A stretch of 64,000 nt of DNA from an uncultured Winogradskyella sp. GTDB taxonomy: Bacteria; Bacteroidota; Bacteroidia; Flavobacteriales; Flavobacteriaceae. The translations under genes were made by a program, and so were the position numbers. The stretch is from contig NZ_CANLYI010000001.1 of the NCBI RefSeq assembly GCF_947495255.1, positions 1 to 64,000 of the forward strand, written 5' to 3'. Positions 45,010-62,351 of the stretch are shown piece by piece. The notes under the pieces were generated by a model. It had not been told where the DNA came from, made no database searches, and was given only the letters and a program-made list of their open reading frames with translations. Every line of letters begins with the position of its first letter. Within the stretch, counting starts at the first letter, position 1.

Positions 45010-47061
45010 TTAATAATTCAATAATGTCTCTATTTTAACTTTCACTTTATCCGTCGAAGGAATCATGGTTTCTTCTAAAATCGAATTTAAAGGAATTGCT
45101 GGCATATTCTCACTTCCAATAACCATTACTGGTGCATCTAAATATTTGAAACATTCTTCTTGTATTTTACCAGATAATGCTCTTGCAAAACTATTATTTG
45201 AAGGCTCTTCTGTTACAACAAGACACTTTCCTGTTTTCTTAACCGATTTTATAATTGTGTCTTCATCTAAAGGAAATAGAGTTCGTAAATCAATCACTTC
45301 AATTTGGTCTTGCATACCAAGTTCTGCACTAGCATTCATTGCCCAATGCACTCCCATTCCATAAGTAACAATAGTTAATGTTTCTACATTTTCTTGTTTC
45401 CAAATTTCTTGTAAAACCCATGCTTTACCAAAAGGCAATACATAATCTTCACTTGGCTCAACAGATGTTGCACCTTGTGTTCCTGGTACTTTAGACCAAT
45501 ACAAACCTTTGTGTTCTAAAATAACTACAGGATTAGGATCGTAATAAGCCGCTTTCATCAACCCTTTTAAATCGGCTCCATTACTTGGATAGGCTATTTT
45601 TATACCTCTAATATTTGTTATCACACTTTCTACTGAAGAGGAATGATAAGGTCCACCACTTCCGTAAGCACCAATCGGTACTCTCAGAATCATGCTTACT
45701 GGCCATTTACCATTAGATAAATAACAACTTCTACTGACTTCTGTAAATAATTGATTTAAGCCAGGCCAAATATAATCGGCAAACTGAACCTCAACAATGG
45801 GTTTTAATCCAACTGCACTCATGCCAACTGTAGAACCTACAATAAAAGCTTCTTGTATTGGTGTATTAAATACACGGTCGTCTCCAAATTTTTGCGCTAA
45901 TGTTGCTGCTTCTCTAAAAACACCACCAAGTCTTCCACCTACATCTTGCCCATAGAGTAAACATTCTTTGTGCTTTTTCATCAGCTCTTCTACTGCGAAT
46001 AAAGCGCAATCTACCATCACGACTTTCTCAGCACCTTCTGGTGAACGTGTTCCTTTTTCCTCAGTAATTGGGGTGGGTACAAAATCGTTGGTAAATAAAT
46101 CTTCCGGTTTTGGGTCTTCAGCCAATAACGCTCTTTCAAAATCGGACTGCACTTTCGCTTTCGCGGAATTTTCTAGCTCTAAAACGTCTTGTTCTGAAAA
46201 TCCTGCATCTAGTAATTGTTGTTTTAAAACTGGATAAGGATCACGAGAGCGTGCCTCTTCTAAATCATCACGATACCATTCCATTCTTACTCCTGAAGTA
46301 TGGTGATTTAATAATGGTACTTTTGCGTGTACTAAAAATGGTCTACGCTCTGCACGAATAGTTTCTATGACTTTTTCTAATGCTTCGTAGCTTTCCGTAA
46401 AGTTTGCTCCATCTATTGAGATAGCGTCTAAACCTTTAAAGCCTTGCGCATATTCAAAAGCATTTTGCGCTCTTGTTTCTGCTGCATTGGCACTAATATC
46501 CCAACCGTTATCTTGCACTAAATATAAGATTGGCATTTGCTTTAATGCTGCCATTTGAAAAGCTTCGGCTATTTCACCTTCGGTTACTGATGCGTCTCCT
46601 AAAGAACACACCACGAATGGCAAATCTTTAAGTGTTTTATCGTCTAAACCTTGTAATTCTTTATACTGCATTCCCATAGCAACTCCTGTTGCTGGAATGG
46701 TTTGCATTCCTGTTGCAGAAGATTGGTGTGGAATTTTAGGTTTATCGTCATCCTTTAAACTAGGATGCGAATAGTAAGTTCTTCCGCCTGAAAATGGATC
46801 GTCTTTTTTAGCCAACAATTGCAACATTAAATCGTAAGGCTCTAAACCAAACGATAACAACATGGCATCGTCTCTGTAATACGGAAAGGCATAATCTTGA
46901 GGTAATAATTGTAATCCTAGAGCTATTTGAATAGCTTCGTGTCCACGAGATGTTGCATGTACATATTTTGAAACTTGTTTAAAATTAGCTTCGTATAGTT
47001 CTGCCATAGCTTTTGCTGTGCAGAGTTTTGAAAATCCTTTTTTTAGTGTTTCTTTTTTCAT
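45010..47061 (-). CDS. 2-oxoacid dehydrogenase E1, alpha and beta subunits fused (branched-chain type)
   Basis: E1 decarboxylates 2-oxoacids with thiamine diphosphate and passes the acyl group to E2 lipoate. Residues ~1-330 are the alpha part, with the ThDP motif GDASVTEGEIAEAFQMA ... VQDNGWDIS. Residues ~350-683 are the beta part: LYGQDVGGRLGGVFREA, TPIQEAFIVGSTVGMSAVGL, VEVQFADYIWPGLNQL, and the C-terminal CLVVTEEPSNNSFA. Most bacteria split these into two genes; the fused form is common in Bacteroidetes. Its place with E2 and a branched-chain aminotransferase points to branched-chain 2-oxoacids rather than pyruvate. Confidence 0.92.
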   Translation of the reverse strand: MKKETLKKGFSKLCTAKAMAELYEANFKQVSKYVHATSRGHEAIQIALGLQLLPQDYAFPYYRDDAMLLSFGLEPYDLMLQLLAKKDDPFSGGRTYYSHPSLKDDDKPKIPHQSSATGMQTIPATGVAMGMQYKELQGLDDKTLKDLPFVVCSLGDASVTEGEIAEAFQMAALKQMPILYLVQDNGWDISANAAETRAQNAFEYAQGFKGLDAISIDGANFTESYEALEKVIETIRAERRPFLVHAKVPLLNHHTSGVRMEWYRDDLEEARSRDPYPVLKQQLLDAGFSEQDVLELENSAKAKVQSDFERALLAEDPKPEDLFTNDFVPTPITEEKGTRSPEGAEKVVMVDCALFAVEELMKKHKECLLYGQDVGGRLGGVFREAATLAQKFGDDRVFNTPIQEAFIVGSTVGMSAVGLKPIVEVQFADYIWPGLNQLFTEVSRSCYLSNGKWPVSMILRVPIGAYGSGGPYHSSSVESVITNIRGIKIAYPSNGADLKGLMKAAYYDPNPVVILEHKGLYWSKVPGTQGATSVEPSEDYVLPFGKAWVLQEIWKQENVETLTIVTYGMGVHWAMNASAELGMQDQIEVIDLRTLFPLDEDTIIKSVKKTGKCLVVTEEPSNNSFARALSGKIQEECFKYLDAPVMVIGSENMPAIPLNSILEETMIPSTDKVKVKIETLLNY

Positions 47062-47065
47062 ATCA

Positions 47066-47085
47066 ATGCCTGCGAAAGCAGGTAT
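47066..47085. repeat. type C palindrome between aminotransferase and E1 genes
   Basis: ATGCCTGCGAAAGCAGGTAT: arms of ~8 bases (CCTGC/GCAGG core). It lies 4 bases before the E1 ATG on the transcript and resembles the other CCTGC-core elements at 54.4, 60.9 and 62.3 kb. Confidence 0.7.
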
Positions 47086-47156: not shown

Positions 47157-47295
47157 GCGTTAGGGATTACTCGTTTATTCTTATTTAATAAATAAGAACT
47201 CGTGATTGCTTCGCAGTTGAGGCATTTGTTGAAGCTCTTTTTTGTTTTTCTCAAAAAAAGCGACTACCGAAAGCGCGCCCCTTGTGGTAACGCCC
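47157..47295. repeat. type E MITE-like element, long copy with nested insertion
   Basis: The ends are inverted GCGTTA ... TAACGC. An ~80-base body from 47217 onward is nearly identical to the copy at 54523-54604 (shared GTTGAAGCTCTTTTTTG, AAAAAAAGCGACT, CCGAAAGC, TAACGCCCAAAT). This copy carries ~50 extra bases, including the perfect hairpin TTCTTATTTA / TAAATAAGAA. It begins a few bases after the aminotransferase stop codon. Confidence 0.75.
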
Positions 47296-47303
47296 AAATA
47301 ACT

Positions 47304-48371
47304 CTAAGCTAATTCTTTTTCTACTTTAGTCATCCAATTAAATTGGTCGTCTAGCTTACCCGTTTTAATAGCATTCAAGGTGTCATTAACTTCTAATCCA
47401 ATTGGGCTTTCATCAGAAACATGAATCGTCTCGCCTTCCAATCCAATCTCTTGAATGTATGCTATACCAACGGCTGTTCCTGTTCCGAAGGCTTCTTCTA
47501 AAGTCCCGTTTTCTGATGCTGTTTTAATTTCATCGATAGTGATTTTTCGTTCTGTTACCGTGAAATTCATAGCACGTAACATCTCTATAACACTAGCTCT
47601 TGTGATGCCATGCAACACAGAACCGTCGAGCTCTGGTGTGATAAATTCTCCATTAATTTTGAAGAAAATATTCATGGTCCCAACTTCTTGAATATACTTA
47701 TGTTCTGCGGCATCTAACCATAATACTTGGTCGTAACCTTTGGCTTTTGCTAATTCTGTTGGGCGAATGGCCGCTGCATAATTACCTGCTGCTTTTGCCT
47801 CTCCAGTTCCACCTTGTGCTGCTCTAATGAATTGCTTTTCTGCCCATAATTTGATACGTTTACTGAAAAATGGACCTGCTGGTGATGCCATAATTATGAA
47901 CTTATAATGTGTTGCTGCTCGCATACCAATAAAAGGCTCATCGGCATACATGAATGGTCTTAAATAGAGTGCGCTTCCATCGGTTGGCGGAATCCAATTG
48001 TGCTCTAAACCAACTAATTCTTTGAGTCCTTCTACAAATAAATCTTCAGGAATATGAGGCATTCCCATTCGATCCGCACTTTTGTTTAAACGCTTAGCAT
48101 TTTCTTCTGGTCTAAATAACATTGGTGTACCTTTGGTGTCTTTATAGGCTTTCATCCCTTCAAAAATAGCTTGTCCGTAATGTAGAGCCATTGCTGCTGG
48201 ATGCGTTGGAATTAATCCCATAGGAATAATTCTTGGATTAACCCATTCACCGTTTTCGTAGTCGCAAATAAACATGTGATCGGTGAATGTGATGCCTAAT
48301 GGAATATTATTGAAGTCTAAGGCATCAACTTTTGATGTTTCTACTTTAGTGATTGAAATGTTAGATTTCAT
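47304..48371 (-). CDS. ilvE: branched-chain amino acid aminotransferase (fold type IV)
   Basis: It swaps the amino group between Leu/Ile/Val and 2-oxoglutarate. The 355-residue protein is the eukaryote-like BCAT type: LHYGQAIFEGMKAYKD near the N-terminus, LYLRPFMYADEPFIGM, the PLP Lys in GEAKAAGNYAAAIRP, DQVLWLDAAEHKYIQEVGTMN, and GTGTAVGIAYI at the end. It sits between E2 and E1 genes, making the 2-oxoacids that the complex oxidises, so here its main role is probably catabolic. Confidence 0.93.
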   Translation of the reverse strand: MKSNISITKVETSKVDALDFNNIPLGITFTDHMFICDYENGEWVNPRIIPMGLIPTHPAAMALHYGQAIFEGMKAYKDTKGTPMLFRPEENAKRLNKSADRMGMPHIPEDLFVEGLKELVGLEHNWIPPTDGSALYLRPFMYADEPFIGMRAATHYKFIIMASPAGPFFSKRIKLWAEKQFIRAAQGGTGEAKAAGNYAAAIRPTELAKAKGYDQVLWLDAAEHKYIQEVGTMNIFFKINGEFITPELDGSVLHGITRASVIEMLRAMNFTVTERKITIDEIKTASENGTLEEAFGTGTAVGIAYIQEIGLEGETIHVSDESPIGLEVNDTLNAIKTGKLDDQFNWMTKVEKELA

Positions 48372-48401
48372 ATATGTATGTTTTTTTAGAGTGTTTAAAA
48401 C

Positions 48402-48432
48402 ACCCCTAAAGTCCCCTCAAGGGGACAATTCT
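48402..48432. repeat. type D palindrome between E2 and aminotransferase genes
   Basis: CACCCCTAAAG followed by the hairpin GTCCCC-TCAA-GGGGAC and AATT. A close copy (CTCCTAAAGTCCTCTCAAGGGGACAATT-like) lies at 56346-56375. Confidence 0.75.
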
Positions 48433-50392: not shown

Positions 50393-50421
50393 ACCTGTAA
50401 GGTTTTGAAAACCTGACAGGT
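50393..50421. repeat. type A palindrome after lrp
   Basis: 14-base arms ACCTGTAAGGTTTT / AAAACCTGACAGGT with one mismatch and a 1-base centre. It starts immediately after the lrp stop codon and may also act as its terminator. Confidence 0.8.
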
Positions 50422-51914: not shown

Positions 51915-54419
51915 TTATATTAATCCAAATTGTTCAAAATGATGGTTAAGGTGTTTTCTTTCTAGTAAATACGATTCGTATTTATTCAATTCTCCGAAAA
52001 CTAAATTCTTTAATTTAGCTTCTGGGTTTTCTTTAAAAAACTCTAAATACTTTTCACGTTGTGCTTTAAACTTATCTATTGCTGTTGCTAAATCGGCATG
52101 TTTTAAAGGTTCTAAAGTATCTTTTTCTAATTGTGGAAATTGACTATTCTTAGGAAACTTATCATAGTTCCATAAGCTATTATGTACTTTCTCTAGAATT
52201 TTTTCTGGTGTAGCAATTTCAAAATCTTGAATTTCACCAGATGCAATTTTATAGGTATATTCTAAATGTTCAATCATGTGTTGAGGTGTCATAATTCCCC
52301 ATTTAGGTTTTGCATCTTCTTTTAATGCATAAAGACATTCGTTGATTTTATCTTCAGTCATTTCAGTTAAAACTTCTTGCTTTTTCTGAACCATAGTTAA
52401 GACTGTTGCGAATGCTACTTTCTCATCGGTATTTGCATCAAAAATTTCGGCATACCATTTTACAATTCCGCTAGGATGTTCTGCTGAAGCGACGTCTCTA
52501 TCTACTTTTTGCTTACACGTTAAGCGCACATAAATAGTATCGTTGTGATATAACGGTCTTAAAAACCTGCATTCTTCTAGTCCGTAATTTGCTGAAACTG
52601 GTCCTTTATTTGGATACACAAATAATCCTGCTGCAGCTGAAATAATAAAATAACCATGTGCAGTTCTTTGTTCGAAAATACTTCCGTCTAAAGAAGTAAT
52701 ATCTGTATGCGCATAGAAATGATCCCAAGTGACATTTGCAAAATTAATAATGTCTGTATCTGTAAATGTACGTCTGTGCGTTTTCATAGACATTCCTGGT
52801 TGGATGTCTTCCCAATGGTATTTAAATGGATGTTGTAGAGCTTCCTTATACTTTGCATTTTGCTGGTAAATACCAGTAATTTCTGTAATTGTTGTTGGCG
52901 AACCTTGGATGGCTGTACGTTGTAAATAATGTTTTATTCCACGCATTCCTCCCATTTCTTCTCCTCCTCCAGCACGTCCAGGACCTCCATGAACTAAATA
53001 TGGTAATGGCGAACCATGACCTGTACTTTCCTTTGCCATATCTCGATTAACAACCATAATACGACCGTGATGAGATGCTGCATTAACTACATACTCTTTA
53101 GCAATCTTATCGTCATTTGTGGCAATTGAAGATACTAACGACCCTTTACCCATTTGAGCTAATAGAATAGCTTCATCTAAGTTTTTATAAGGCATAATGG
53201 TACTTACTGGACCAAAGGCTTCACGTTCGTGAATTATTGTATTTTCAAAGGGATGATCAGAACGTAATAAAATTGGGCTAATAAAAGCGCCTTTTTTAGC
53301 ATCTGCTCCAATGGTGTTTATTTGATCTAAACTGCCATAAACAATTTGTGCTTCTTTAGATAAATCATTTACTGAGTCTCTAACTGCTTGCACTTGTTGA
53401 TGACTTACTAAAGATCCCATTCTAACTTCTTTAAGTCTTGGATCTCCAATAGTTACTTTATCTAATGCTTTTGACAAGGCAGATTGTACATCTTCCACTA
53501 AATTTTGCGGAACAATAATTCTACGTATTGCAGTACATTTTTGTCCTGCTTTAACCGTCATTTCTTTTCTGACTTCTTTGATGAACAAGTCGAATTCTGG
53601 TGTTCCAGGAACGGCATCTTCTCCTAAGATGGATGCGTTTAAAGAATCGGCTTCCATGGTAAATGGCACAGATTCTTGTATTAATTGTGGATGCGCTTTT
53701 AGTAAGCGTCCTACTTTTGCAGAACCCGTAAATGTTACAACATCTTGAGACTCTAATGTGTCAAGAATTGTTTTTACGGTTCCGTTTATAATTTGTAGTG
53801 CACCTTCTGGTAAAATACCGGAAGCGATTATTTCTTTTGCTACAGCTTCAGCTAAATAAGAAGTGGAAGGTGCTGGTAAAACTACAGCAGGCACTCCAGC
53901 CATCCAGTTTACTGCACATTTTTCTAACATTCCCCAAACTGGAAAATTAAAGGCATTAATATGAACTGCTACTCCTTTTTTAGGCACCATGATATGATGC
54001 GCCATAAAACGTCCGCCACGAGATAAATCGATAGCATCCCCTTCTACATGATACGGTTGATTTGGGAACAGTTTACGTAATGAAGCATTTGCGAATAAAT
54101 TCCCAAAACCACCTTCGATGTCTATCCAACTATCTACTTTGGTTGCTCCTGTTCTATAACTTAATTCGTAAAACGAATTTTTCCTTTTAGTAAGATATAA
54201 CGCTAAACTTTTAAGCATGTTTCCACGTTCTTGGAAAGTCATTTTTCGAAGAACCTCTCCTCCTTTTGTTCTTCCGTAGTTAAGAATTTCTGGAACGTCT
54301 AAACCTTCGATAGCAATGCTCGTAAAGGCTTCGCCAGTTACAGCGTCTAAGATTGGTGTTCCTTCTTCTTTACCTGTTGTCCATTGTCCTTGAACGTAAT
54401 GCTCTATTTTATTCATCAT
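51915..54419 (-). CDS. paaZ: PaaZ: oxepin-CoA hydrolase / semialdehyde dehydrogenase, with extra C-terminal domain
   Basis: PaaZ opens the oxepin-CoA ring and oxidises the resulting aldehyde. Residues 1-~520 are the aldehyde dehydrogenase (FTMEADSLNAS with catalytic Glu; VKAGQKCTAIRRI with catalytic Cys; GGPGRAGGGEEMGG). Residues ~535-676 are the MaoC-like hydratase (FANVTWDHFYAHTD ... GYFIISAAAG). At 834 residues it is about 150 longer than E. coli PaaZ (681). Residues ~677-834 form an added domain with MTPQHMIEHLEYTYK and ERKHLNHHFEQFGLI, a DUF1569/DinB-like His arrangement. Whether it catalyses anything is unknown. Confidence 0.93.
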   Translation of the reverse strand: MMNKIEHYVQGQWTTGKEEGTPILDAVTGEAFTSIAIEGLDVPEILNYGRTKGGEVLRKMTFQERGNMLKSLALYLTKRKNSFYELSYRTGATKVDSWIDIEGGFGNLFANASLRKLFPNQPYHVEGDAIDLSRGGRFMAHHIMVPKKGVAVHINAFNFPVWGMLEKCAVNWMAGVPAVVLPAPSTSYLAEAVAKEIIASGILPEGALQIINGTVKTILDTLESQDVVTFTGSAKVGRLLKAHPQLIQESVPFTMEADSLNASILGEDAVPGTPEFDLFIKEVRKEMTVKAGQKCTAIRRIIVPQNLVEDVQSALSKALDKVTIGDPRLKEVRMGSLVSHQQVQAVRDSVNDLSKEAQIVYGSLDQINTIGADAKKGAFISPILLRSDHPFENTIIHEREAFGPVSTIMPYKNLDEAILLAQMGKGSLVSSIATNDDKIAKEYVVNAASHHGRIMVVNRDMAKESTGHGSPLPYLVHGGPGRAGGGEEMGGMRGIKHYLQRTAIQGSPTTITEITGIYQQNAKYKEALQHPFKYHWEDIQPGMSMKTHRRTFTDTDIINFANVTWDHFYAHTDITSLDGSIFEQRTAHGYFIISAAAGLFVYPNKGPVSANYGLEECRFLRPLYHNDTIYVRLTCKQKVDRDVASAEHPSGIVKWYAEIFDANTDEKVAFATVLTMVQKKQEVLTEMTEDKINECLYALKEDAKPKWGIMTPQHMIEHLEYTYKIASGEIQDFEIATPEKILEKVHNSLWNYDKFPKNSQFPQLEKDTLEPLKHADLATAIDKFKAQREKYLEFFKENPEAKLKNLVFGELNKYESYLLERKHLNHHFEQFGLI

Positions 54420-54435
54420 TTTTACTTTATAGTGG

Positions 54436-54454
54436 ATTCCTGCCTGCGCAGGAA
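54436..54454. repeat. type C palindrome upstream of paaZ
   Basis: ATTCCTGCCTGCGCAGGAAT core; near-perfect inverted repeat 16 bases before the paaZ ATG on the transcript. Confidence 0.75.
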
Positions 54455-54512: not shown

Positions 54513-54600
54513 GCGTTAAGGATTGAGGTATTTGTTGAAGCTCTTTTTTGTTTTTCTCAAAAAAAGCGACTGCCGAAAGCCTGACCTTTAGGTAACGCCC
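54513..54600. repeat. type E MITE-like element, short copy
   Basis: An 88-base element bounded by GCGTTA and TAACGC. The body matches the copy at 47157-47295 but lacks the ~50-base nested insertion. It begins 8 bases after the thiolase stop codon. Confidence 0.75.
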
Positions 54601-54608
54601 AAATTATT

Positions 54609-55820
54609 TTACTTACTTACATTTTCAATAATCGCTGCATAACCTTGACCAACGCCAATGCACATGGTGATTAACGCGTAACGTTTGTTGGTTTCTTGCA
54701 ACTCTAAAGCCGCTGAAAAAGCAACTCTTGCACCTGTAACGCCAAGCGGATGACCAATTGCAATTGCGCCTCCATTTGGATTTATTCTTGGGTCATTATC
54801 TTCCAATCCCCAAGCACGAATACATGCTAATGCTTGTGCAGCAAAGGCTTCGTTAAGCTCGATAATATCCATATCTTCCAAGGTTAAACCTGCTTTTGCT
54901 AATGCTTTATTTGAGGCTTGAACTGGACCAATACCCATAATTCTTGGCTCTACACCAACCACTGCAGAACTTACTATTCTTGCTAATGGTTTTAGGTTGT
55001 ATTTTTTTACGGCATCTGCTGATGCTATAATTGTTGCTGCTGCTCCGTCGTTTAATCCTGAAGAGTTTCCAGCAGTTACACTTCCACCTTCTTTTTTAAA
55101 GGCAGGTCTTAGTTTTCCTAAAACTTCTAAAGATGATGTTGGTTTTATAAACTCGTCTTTTGAAAATTGTATTGGATCTTTTTTACGTTGTGGAATTTCT
55201 ACAGTAACAATTTCTTTTGCTAGTCTTCCGTTCTCTTGTGCCTTGGTTGCTTTTTGCTGACTCCAAAGTGCGAACTTATCTTGGTCTTCTCTTGATAAAT
55301 TATATTTCTCTACAAGATTTTCTGCAGTGTTTCCCATGCCATCTGTTCCATACATTTGCTGCATTTTAGGATTGATAAAACGCCATCCAAAAGTTGAATC
55401 GTATAGTTTTGAATCGCCTCCAAATGCTGATGATGGTTTTGCCATAACGTATGGTCCACGCGTCATGTTCTCGACTCCTCCAGAAATAAAGACGTCTCCA
55501 TCTCCTGCTTTTATAGCTCGATTTGCGTGAATGATTGCCGATAATCCCGAACTACATAAACGGTTTACAGTTTCCCCGGGAACGGTAAATGGCAAACCGG
55601 CTAACAAGGATGACATTCTCGCAACATTACGATTATCTTCTCCCGCTTGGTTTGCGCAACCCATAATAACATCGTCGTAAGCTTCTTTTGGGATGCTTGG
55701 GTTTCGTTTTACGATTTCTGAAATTACTAAGGCTCCTAAATCGTCTGTTCGAACAGCAGATAAAGTGCCTTTGTAGTTTCCTATTGGCGTTCTAATTCCG
55801 TCTATTATGTATGCTTCCAT
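54609..55820 (-). CDS. paaJ: 3-oxoadipyl-CoA/acetyl-CoA thiolase
   Basis: The start is ATG 55820 (MEAYIIDGIRTPIG); the track ORF adds 15 residues (FSTSISISIS) translated from a low-complexity repeat. The 403-residue thiolase has the acyl Cys in NRLCSSGLSAI, NEAFAAQALACIRA, GGAIAIGHPLGVTGAR with catalytic His, and the second Cys in TMCIGVGQGYA. In this cluster it should cleave 3-oxoadipyl-CoA (and possibly the dehydrosuberyl form) to acetyl-CoA and succinyl-CoA. Confidence 0.94.
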   Translation of the reverse strand: MEAYIIDGIRTPIGNYKGTLSAVRTDDLGALVISEIVKRNPSIPKEAYDDVIMGCANQAGEDNRNVARMSSLLAGLPFTVPGETVNRLCSSGLSAIIHANRAIKAGDGDVFISGGVENMTRGPYVMAKPSSAFGGDSKLYDSTFGWRFINPKMQQMYGTDGMGNTAENLVEKYNLSREDQDKFALWSQQKATKAQENGRLAKEIVTVEIPQRKKDPIQFSKDEFIKPTSSLEVLGKLRPAFKKEGGSVTAGNSSGLNDGAAATIIASADAVKKYNLKPLARIVSSAVVGVEPRIMGIGPVQASNKALAKAGLTLEDMDIIELNEAFAAQALACIRAWGLEDNDPRINPNGGAIAIGHPLGVTGARVAFSAALELQETNKRYALITMCIGVGQGYAAIIENVSK

Positions 55821-55870
55821 ATTTGAAATTGAAATTGAAATTGAAGTCGAAAATTGAAACTTCATATTTC
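55821..55870. repeat. type F low-complexity TTGAAA repeat/hairpin between paaI and paaJ
   Basis: Three tandem ATTGAA units, then GAAGT ... ACTTC and TTTGAAAT ... ATTTCAAA inverted repeats. It fills the whole spacer up to the thiolase start codon. Confidence 0.65.
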
Positions 55871-56315: not shown

Positions 56316-56345
56316 CTTATTAATTATTATTATATTTAAAAAAAA

Positions 56346-56375
56346 CACTCCTAAAGTCCTCTCAAGGGGACAATT
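56346..56375. repeat. type D palindrome between paaH and paaI
   Basis: CACTCCTAAAGTCCTC-TCAA-GGGGACAATT, one G-U-like mismatch from the copy at 48402; 7 bases from the paaH stop. Confidence 0.72.
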
Positions 56376-57594: not shown

Positions 57595-57621
57595 CTTTTA
57601 ATTAAACTTCTATTTTTTATA

Positions 57622-57648
57622 CCTACAAGGTTTTAAAAACCTTGCAGG
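57622..57648. repeat. type A palindrome between dehydratase and paaH genes
   Basis: CCTACAAGGTTTT / AAAACCTTGCAGG arms with one mismatch, 7 bases after the dehydratase stop. Confidence 0.8.
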
Positions 57649-57654
57649 ATAATT

Positions 57655-59440: not shown

Positions 59441-59473
59441 AGACCTGTCAGGTTTTAAAAACCTGACAGGTCT
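59441..59473. repeat. type A perfect palindrome between paaD and paaG
   Basis: A perfect 33-base inverted repeat: 16-base arm AGACCTGTCAGGTTTT and its complement around a single A. It fills most of the 51-base spacer. Confidence 0.88.
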
Positions 59474-60910: not shown

Positions 60911-60930
60911 ATTCCTGCGTTGGCAGGAAT
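60911..60930. repeat. type C palindrome after paaB
   Basis: ATTCCTGCGTTGGCAGGAAT: ATTCCTGC / GCAGGAAT arms; abuts the paaB stop codon. Confidence 0.75.
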
Positions 60931-62331: not shown

Positions 62332-62351
62332 ATTCCTGAATTGGCAGGAAT
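62332..62351. repeat. type C palindrome between paaE and paaA
   Basis: ATTCCTGAATTGGCAGGAAT: ATTCCTG / CAGGAAT arms; 11 bases after the paaE stop. Confidence 0.72.

Follow-up and report, generated by a model that had tools for sequence, protein, structure and literature searches.

Two related elements lie in the window, the 64,000-nucleotide stretch of Winogradskyella DNA analysed here as a whole. The long copy (47157–47295, minus strand), which combines a class A body with an optional module, reads GGGCGTTACC...CCCTAACGC and begins 8 nt past the stop codon of ilvE, the gene of a branched-chain-amino-acid transaminase (47304–48371, minus strand; TIGR01123, 345 bits against a cut-off of 250). 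The next gene encodes a fused alpha/beta E1 2-oxoacid dehydrogenase (45010–47061, minus strand). The short copy (54513–54600, minus strand; class A) begins 8 nt past the stop codon of a 3-oxoadipyl-CoA thiolase gene of the pcaF/paaJ type (54609–55865, minus strand; TIGR02430, 604 bits against a cut-off of 597), and the gene that follows it encodes a PaaZ bifunctional protein of phenylacetate degradation (51915–54419, minus strand; TIGR02278, 872 bits). On the plus strand either copy runs from GCGTTA to TAACGCC(C); on the minus strand, the sequence from the eighth nucleotide beyond the stop codon is GGGCGTTACC...CCTAACGC or CCTTAACGC, and the outer ends GGGCG...GC delimit both elements at the coordinates above. 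The closing helix, P1, pairs the arm GCGTTA with the arm TAACGC (plus strand; 47157–47162 with 47288–47293 in the long copy, 54513–54518 with 54593–54598 in the short one). The bodies (47217–47283 and 54523–54589; repeat family D2) are 91% identical over 67 nt. Comparison of the two copies further delimits the optional module, to which no strand is assigned, as 50 nt (47169–47218) that enter the long copy at the base of the main helix and carry the hairpin arms TTCTTATTTA/TAAATAAGAA (47178–47187 and 47189–47198) as well as a mini-hairpin, TGCGAAGCA. Direct reading of the sequence confirmed what the earlier note had described here, namely the shared ends and body, the roughly 50 extra hairpin-bearing bases of the longer copy, and the start of each copy shortly after a stop codon, which we place at 8 nt on the minus strand in both cases.

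We searched the window's own genome with a covariance model of the family, built from 33 aligned sequences that include the short window copy and leave out the long one. The model found nine copies, among them the short copy at 54513–54598 (59.8 bits, E 4.4e-12 over the whole genome for a copy that belongs to the model alignment) and the long copy at 47157–47293 (33.7 bits, E 4.3e-5 over the whole genome for a copy outside it). With the short copy as query, BLASTN retrieved two more clear or partial copies from the same genome, and a 101-nt query matched 32 of 61 congeneric genomes. Because the repeat recurs in these congeners and in nine copies at home, it is not a product of chance, and the further genomic copies for which the earlier note had proposed a genome-wide BLASTN were indeed present.

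Sequence comparison identifies the window copies as divergent relatives of Flavo-1 (RF01705), a candidate RNA proposed from computation (Weinberg et al., 2010; PMC2864571) and ranked in a review, without a function, among the most abundant "small RNAs" (PMC9029176). We sorted the copies by their bodies into classes A and B (the window type), C and C' (the Flavo-1 type), D and E. Class C copies score above the Rfam gathering cut-off for Flavo-1 of 42 bits; three of them (C7, C6 and C11) do so in the window's own genome and two others fall just under. The Rfam model itself gave no match to the window copies at E ≤ 1 and none at the gathering cut-off. A single MAFFT alignment of 33 copies, the short window copy included, nevertheless has 27 invariant columns, and classes A/B, C, C' and D fit one alignment and one model with common ends and a closing three-way fold. 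It is because class C passes the cut-off, one alignment spans the classes and the model made from it detects both window copies that we assign them to the same family. The window copies resemble Flavo-1 in their ends, closing helix, GAAAGCCCGACC..GGTAACGC side and size; they differ, together with class B, in having another inner body with a 2x2 G.A loop, and the 50-nt module is without counterpart in the Flavo-1 matches seen.

A pattern written from the GGGCG end, GGGCGTTACCN{2,10}GGTCGGGCT, was present in 47 of the 201 genomes sampled from the bacterial family, none of which matched the reversed pattern. The richest was an Algibacter genome (G104) with 70 strict matches. In a one-genome-per-species collection the pattern was widespread, chiefly in Flavobacteriaceae, with single matches in Chitinophagaceae, Parabacteroides and a Bacteroides fragilis plasmid; matches from Streptomyces and Planctomycetota (L114, L073) may be due to chance or contamination. 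Among the 2.9 million contigs of IMG/VR, 13 carried the strict pattern. A full class D copy (L095) sits on the Bacteroides fragilis plasmid Q1F2-p2 (6810), in a distant member of the Bacteroidetes, and is a possible route of spread. A third copy resembling classes A and B (L003; G000 C12:87088–87194) stands just upstream of the tmRNA gene in opposite orientation, and a congener (L017) has a copy at what seems to be the same location. At L012 and L010, the intergenic region behind the thiolase gene holds a pair of elements that differ in class and point in opposite directions. A literature search with the end sequence of the element returned unrelated papers only, apparently through primers, and a search for such repeats in flavobacteria found no paper.

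Every copy is built on the same plan: besides a closing helix and a small hairpin there is a main helix, in which G.A mismatches are conserved and the tip varies freely. On the Flavo-1 strand the chassis of all classes is GCGTTA-GGG-A-T-X'-G(N)A-helix-variable tip-helix-G(N)A-X-AG-CCC-GA-CC..GG-TAACGC. P1 (GCGTTA/TAACGC) pairs in nearly all of 224 copies. The main helix starts with GGG/CCC (variants GCG/CGC, AGG/CCT and GTG/CAC), a conserved A.G mismatch and a T-A pair, and continues through the pair X'-X to G.A pairs that are 2x2 (GA/GA) in classes A and B and 3x3 (GNA/GNA) in C and D; beyond these come a short helix and the variable tip, and GA and the small hairpin CC..GG follow the main helix. 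The pair X-X' is T-A in 163 of the 224 copies, A-T in 46, G-C in 3 and C-G in 1, which makes 213 pairs against 136 expected. All four varying pairs that we tested were likewise paired more often than after permutation of the columns (175 against 79 in another example). In alignment A1, 98.0% of cells were paired, a value reached by none of 500 shuffles, and slid partners gave 20–48%. RNAalifold, unaided, recovered P1, the main helix and the small hairpin, the last one column off. Folded singly, the window copies did no better than shuffles (z −0.45 to −1.35), so the structural case rests on comparison.

The departures from pairing in the inner helix are one-sided, with 24 wobbles on the Flavo-1 strand and 1 on the other (p 1.5e-6 if independent, an optimistic value for counts that share ancestry). 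Since the wobbles are distributed 24:1 and the mismatches are G.A and not C.T, the pattern says that folding belongs to the Flavo-1 strand, which would be the plus strand of the window. This constrained strand runs antisense to the gene at whose stop codon the element lies.

The module of the long copy occupies the same position in six congeneric loci (L011, L014, L018, L037, L042 and L054), and related modules occupy it in L012, L035 and the Algibacter locus L306. The earlier note had described a nested hairpin insertion. The extra 50 nt with their hairpin stand, but a single random secondary insertion does not, as such modules recur at a fixed place in other species and genera. Because of these counterparts in congeners and in Algibacter, the 50 nt appear better read as a recurrent optional structural module.

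Several other repeats accompany the element. The palindromic repeat ACCTGNNAGGTTTT(N)AAAACCT(NN)CAGGT occurs three times in the window (50393–50421, 57621–57649 and 59443–59471; none expected), and, in some Flavo-1-like copies (L013, L015, L050), also within the small hairpin. The palindrome TTCCTGC(NNNN)GCAGGAA, with up to two mismatches, has four copies (54437–54454, 60912–60929, 47067–47084 and 62333–62350; 0.06 expected) and is often the next repeat beside the element. A third repeat, AAAACACCCCTAAAGTCCCCTCAAGGGGACAATT, is found in the window at 48397–48430 and 56342–56375 and forms a large inverted repeat directly past TAACGC at the ilvE site of congeners L011, L014 and L037. In Algibacter and relatives (L067–L185), many copies are followed by a tail such as GGG.CTATCCGCCAA, which resembles the element's own GGGTCGGGCTATCCGCTNCAA. 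Long class C tips (L092, L098, L151, L168, L198, L301 and L303) hold yet another common repeat, GTCATTGCGAGG...GTGGCAATCTG, nested in the tip.

Occupied sites persist while their contents change. A tree of ilvE and the next gene from 30 congeners implies that the body class changed a minimum of 10 times, the module 6 times and presence 4 times. Two sister genomes, G042 (class A with the module) and G019 (class B without it), are 94–95% identical in the flanks on both sides, and their differences fall inside the ilvE element site and immediately beyond it on the downstream side. For Algibacter, we traced six G104 sites in up to 9 congeners; the element was kept at nearly all orthologous places with differing tips, and was lost from one of them (site L304, in G264). 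The sites are old and their interiors exchanged, because orthologous places stay occupied while class, module and tip change. The patterns suggest exchange by gene conversion, and pairs such as G042 and G019, whose differences are limited to the element site and the sequence immediately downstream, open the mechanism to study. Long retention of sites together with exchange of the inner hairpin is suggestive of a mobile or recombining DNA element and not of an ordinary RNA gene.

The junctions at which the element sits can also be empty. In 10 congeners ilvE is separated from the next gene by 0 nt and carries no element, and in about 28 others the element follows the stop codon, mostly after 8 nt; the thiolase–paaZ junction is without a gap in congeners L276 and L280 and holds an element in many congeners. 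These observations bear out the earlier note's description of a dispersed non-coding repeat with defined inverted ends and add presence/absence at orthologous gene junctions. Transposition was not observed, and the presence/absence is between species only, so some of the "empty" junctions could be losses. For placement we compared the two ends in 105 independent upstream contexts that span many genera. A stop codon lay no more than 10 nt from the GGGCG end in 19 of the 105 and from the other end in 2 (Fisher p 1e-4); at up to 30 nt, the counts were 36 and 10 (Fisher p 2e-5). The systematic placement after stop codons suspected earlier is therefore a strong one-sided preference of the GGGCG end but not a rule.

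This preference for the first nucleotides past stop codons, and the long retention of orthologous sites, would be expected of a host element of gene 3' ends kept by selection, such as an mRNA stabiliser, a terminator or a chromosome-organising site with roles like those of REP and ERIC sequences. Selection for a host function could likewise explain why orthologous sites stay occupied. Terminator hairpins adjoin 9 of 188 copies against about 1 in shuffles, a fraction too small for terminator adjacency as a general rule, which we rejected. The short copy has no intrinsic terminator in the form of a GC-rich hairpin with a T-run directly behind; the long copy has one weak 7-bp terminator match, on the antisense strand and overlapping the optional module, and neither has a strong intrinsic-terminator signature. 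The constrained strand is, moreover, the antisense one, and many congeners have neither the element nor a substitute at these junctions. We consider a host 3'-end function unlikely as the main explanation.

Even less probable, in our view, is an RNA reading, under which both Flavo-1 and the window copies would act as structured RNA in cis-regulation or in trans and owe their structure to that function. One-sided wobbles, G.A mismatches and compensatory changes typify functional RNA, and some 5' transcribed regions of F. psychrophilum overlap Flavo-1 (PMC9723704). The same transcriptome study, however, found Flavo-1 matches alike in sense and antisense to transcribed regions, many of them untranscribed, and its authors were unable to give Flavo-1 a function (PMC9723704). 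The orientation antisense to the adjoining gene, the free variation of tip and module, and the high copy number at unrelated genes (at least 22 in each genome of one genus, about 70 in Algibacter G104) also speak against an RNA. We favour a DNA element because one strand is structurally constrained, that strand is antisense to the adjoining gene and the one transcriptome study found reveals no consistent RNA.

What kind of DNA element this might be depends in part on its ends. The flank at the GGGCG end is TT(T/A) and the opposite flank starts with A or G. Flanks that match exactly over at least 4 nt, as expected of the target duplications that the earlier note had suggested defining from aligned copies, were found in 0 of 214 copies and were no more frequent than in re-paired controls. 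A missing duplication, a conserved T-T-T/A flank on one side and a one-strand mismatched hairpin resemble the substrates of Y1 (RAYT/IS200-type) transposases, which read hairpins in single-stranded DNA and could have moved a REP-like element. A Y1_Tnp gene is present in 64 of 201 genomes of the bacterial family, yet element-rich genomes are often without it (G104, G224 and G132, at E ≤ 1e-5). A Y1 transposase is not an evident driver, as its presence was not associated with copy number and the genome with 70 strict matches had no Y1 match; movement of this kind is, all in all, improbable. Most improbable is a classical MITE, derived from a DDE insertion sequence, non-autonomous and bounded by terminal inverted repeats: the "MITE-like" label of the earlier note keeps its value for the small size, the inverted ends GCGTTA/TAACGC at nearly all copies, the dispersal and the presence/absence at orthologous sites, but a strict MITE is largely refuted by the 0 of 214 duplications and is further opposed by a true inverted repeat of just about 6–9 bp, by the lack of a parent element or transposase between such ends in the loci read, by ends and mismatches conserved as a fold and not as repeats, by sites retained while interiors change, and by membership of the Flavo-1 family.

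The best explanation, to which we give slightly better than an even chance, is a joint one. The window copies and Flavo-1 would form one family of non-coding, structured, dispersed DNA repeats, and such a repeat would act as a folded single strand, be inserted near gene ends and be remodelled by recombination among its copies. The chassis, the presence/absence, the gene-end preference, the missing duplication and the persistence with a changing interior are the observations at its base. The working form would be a single strand that folds back on itself while the DNA is single-stranded, in replication or transfer. A putative recombinase or HUH-type nuclease would read the folded, mismatched hairpin and not the tip, and could have placed copies near the 3' ends of genes; no such enzyme was found. 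Later remodelling may have proceeded by gene-conversion-like exchange with other copies and with neighbouring intergenic repeats, and a location just beyond stop codons may be tolerated, or useful for 3' ends. More doubtful, and offered tentatively, is the idea that Flavo-1 represents an unrecognised class of mobile or recombining DNA site and not an RNA, a one-strand hairpin whose chassis is fixed, whose tip and side modules can be swapped, and which a putative Bacteroidetes enzyme would insert at gene ends without duplication.

Among known systems, the integron attC site is alike only in how it works: its ends are short and conserved, unpaired bases are conserved on one of its strands when folded, and its terminal structure is free to vary. 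An attC site has RYYYAAC at its 5' side and GTTRRRY at its 3' side. We rejected this identity, as GCGTTA...TAACGC has the opposite polarity on either strand (GTTA 5', TAAC 3'), and no cassettes or integrase were seen. ERIC/IRU and similar enterobacterial repeats are imperfect palindromes of about 80–130 bp that lie in intergenic, transcribed regions in either orientation and carry internal insertions at fixed places. The present element is like them in all of these features, but is unrelated in sequence and has strict one-strand mismatches, no TA duplication and an exchange of interiors. REP and REPIN sequences with their RAYT enzymes (e.g., PMC2817692, PMC3116915) are likewise extragenic, palindromic, of high copy number and folded as a single strand; REPs, however, measure 20–40 bp and are bound to Y1 enzymes, whereas the present element is a three-helix fold of 75–150 nt with no tie to Y1 counts. 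As far as we checked, the following is new: the family extends to classes that Rfam does not cover, its mismatches follow a one-strand pattern, copies are biased towards gene ends, target duplication is missing, and interiors are exchanged while sites stay fixed. Rfam handles Flavo-1 as an RNA and we read it as a DNA repeat; the extended family, the one-strand structure, the placement at gene ends, the missing duplication and the exchange of interiors argue for re-filing it as such.
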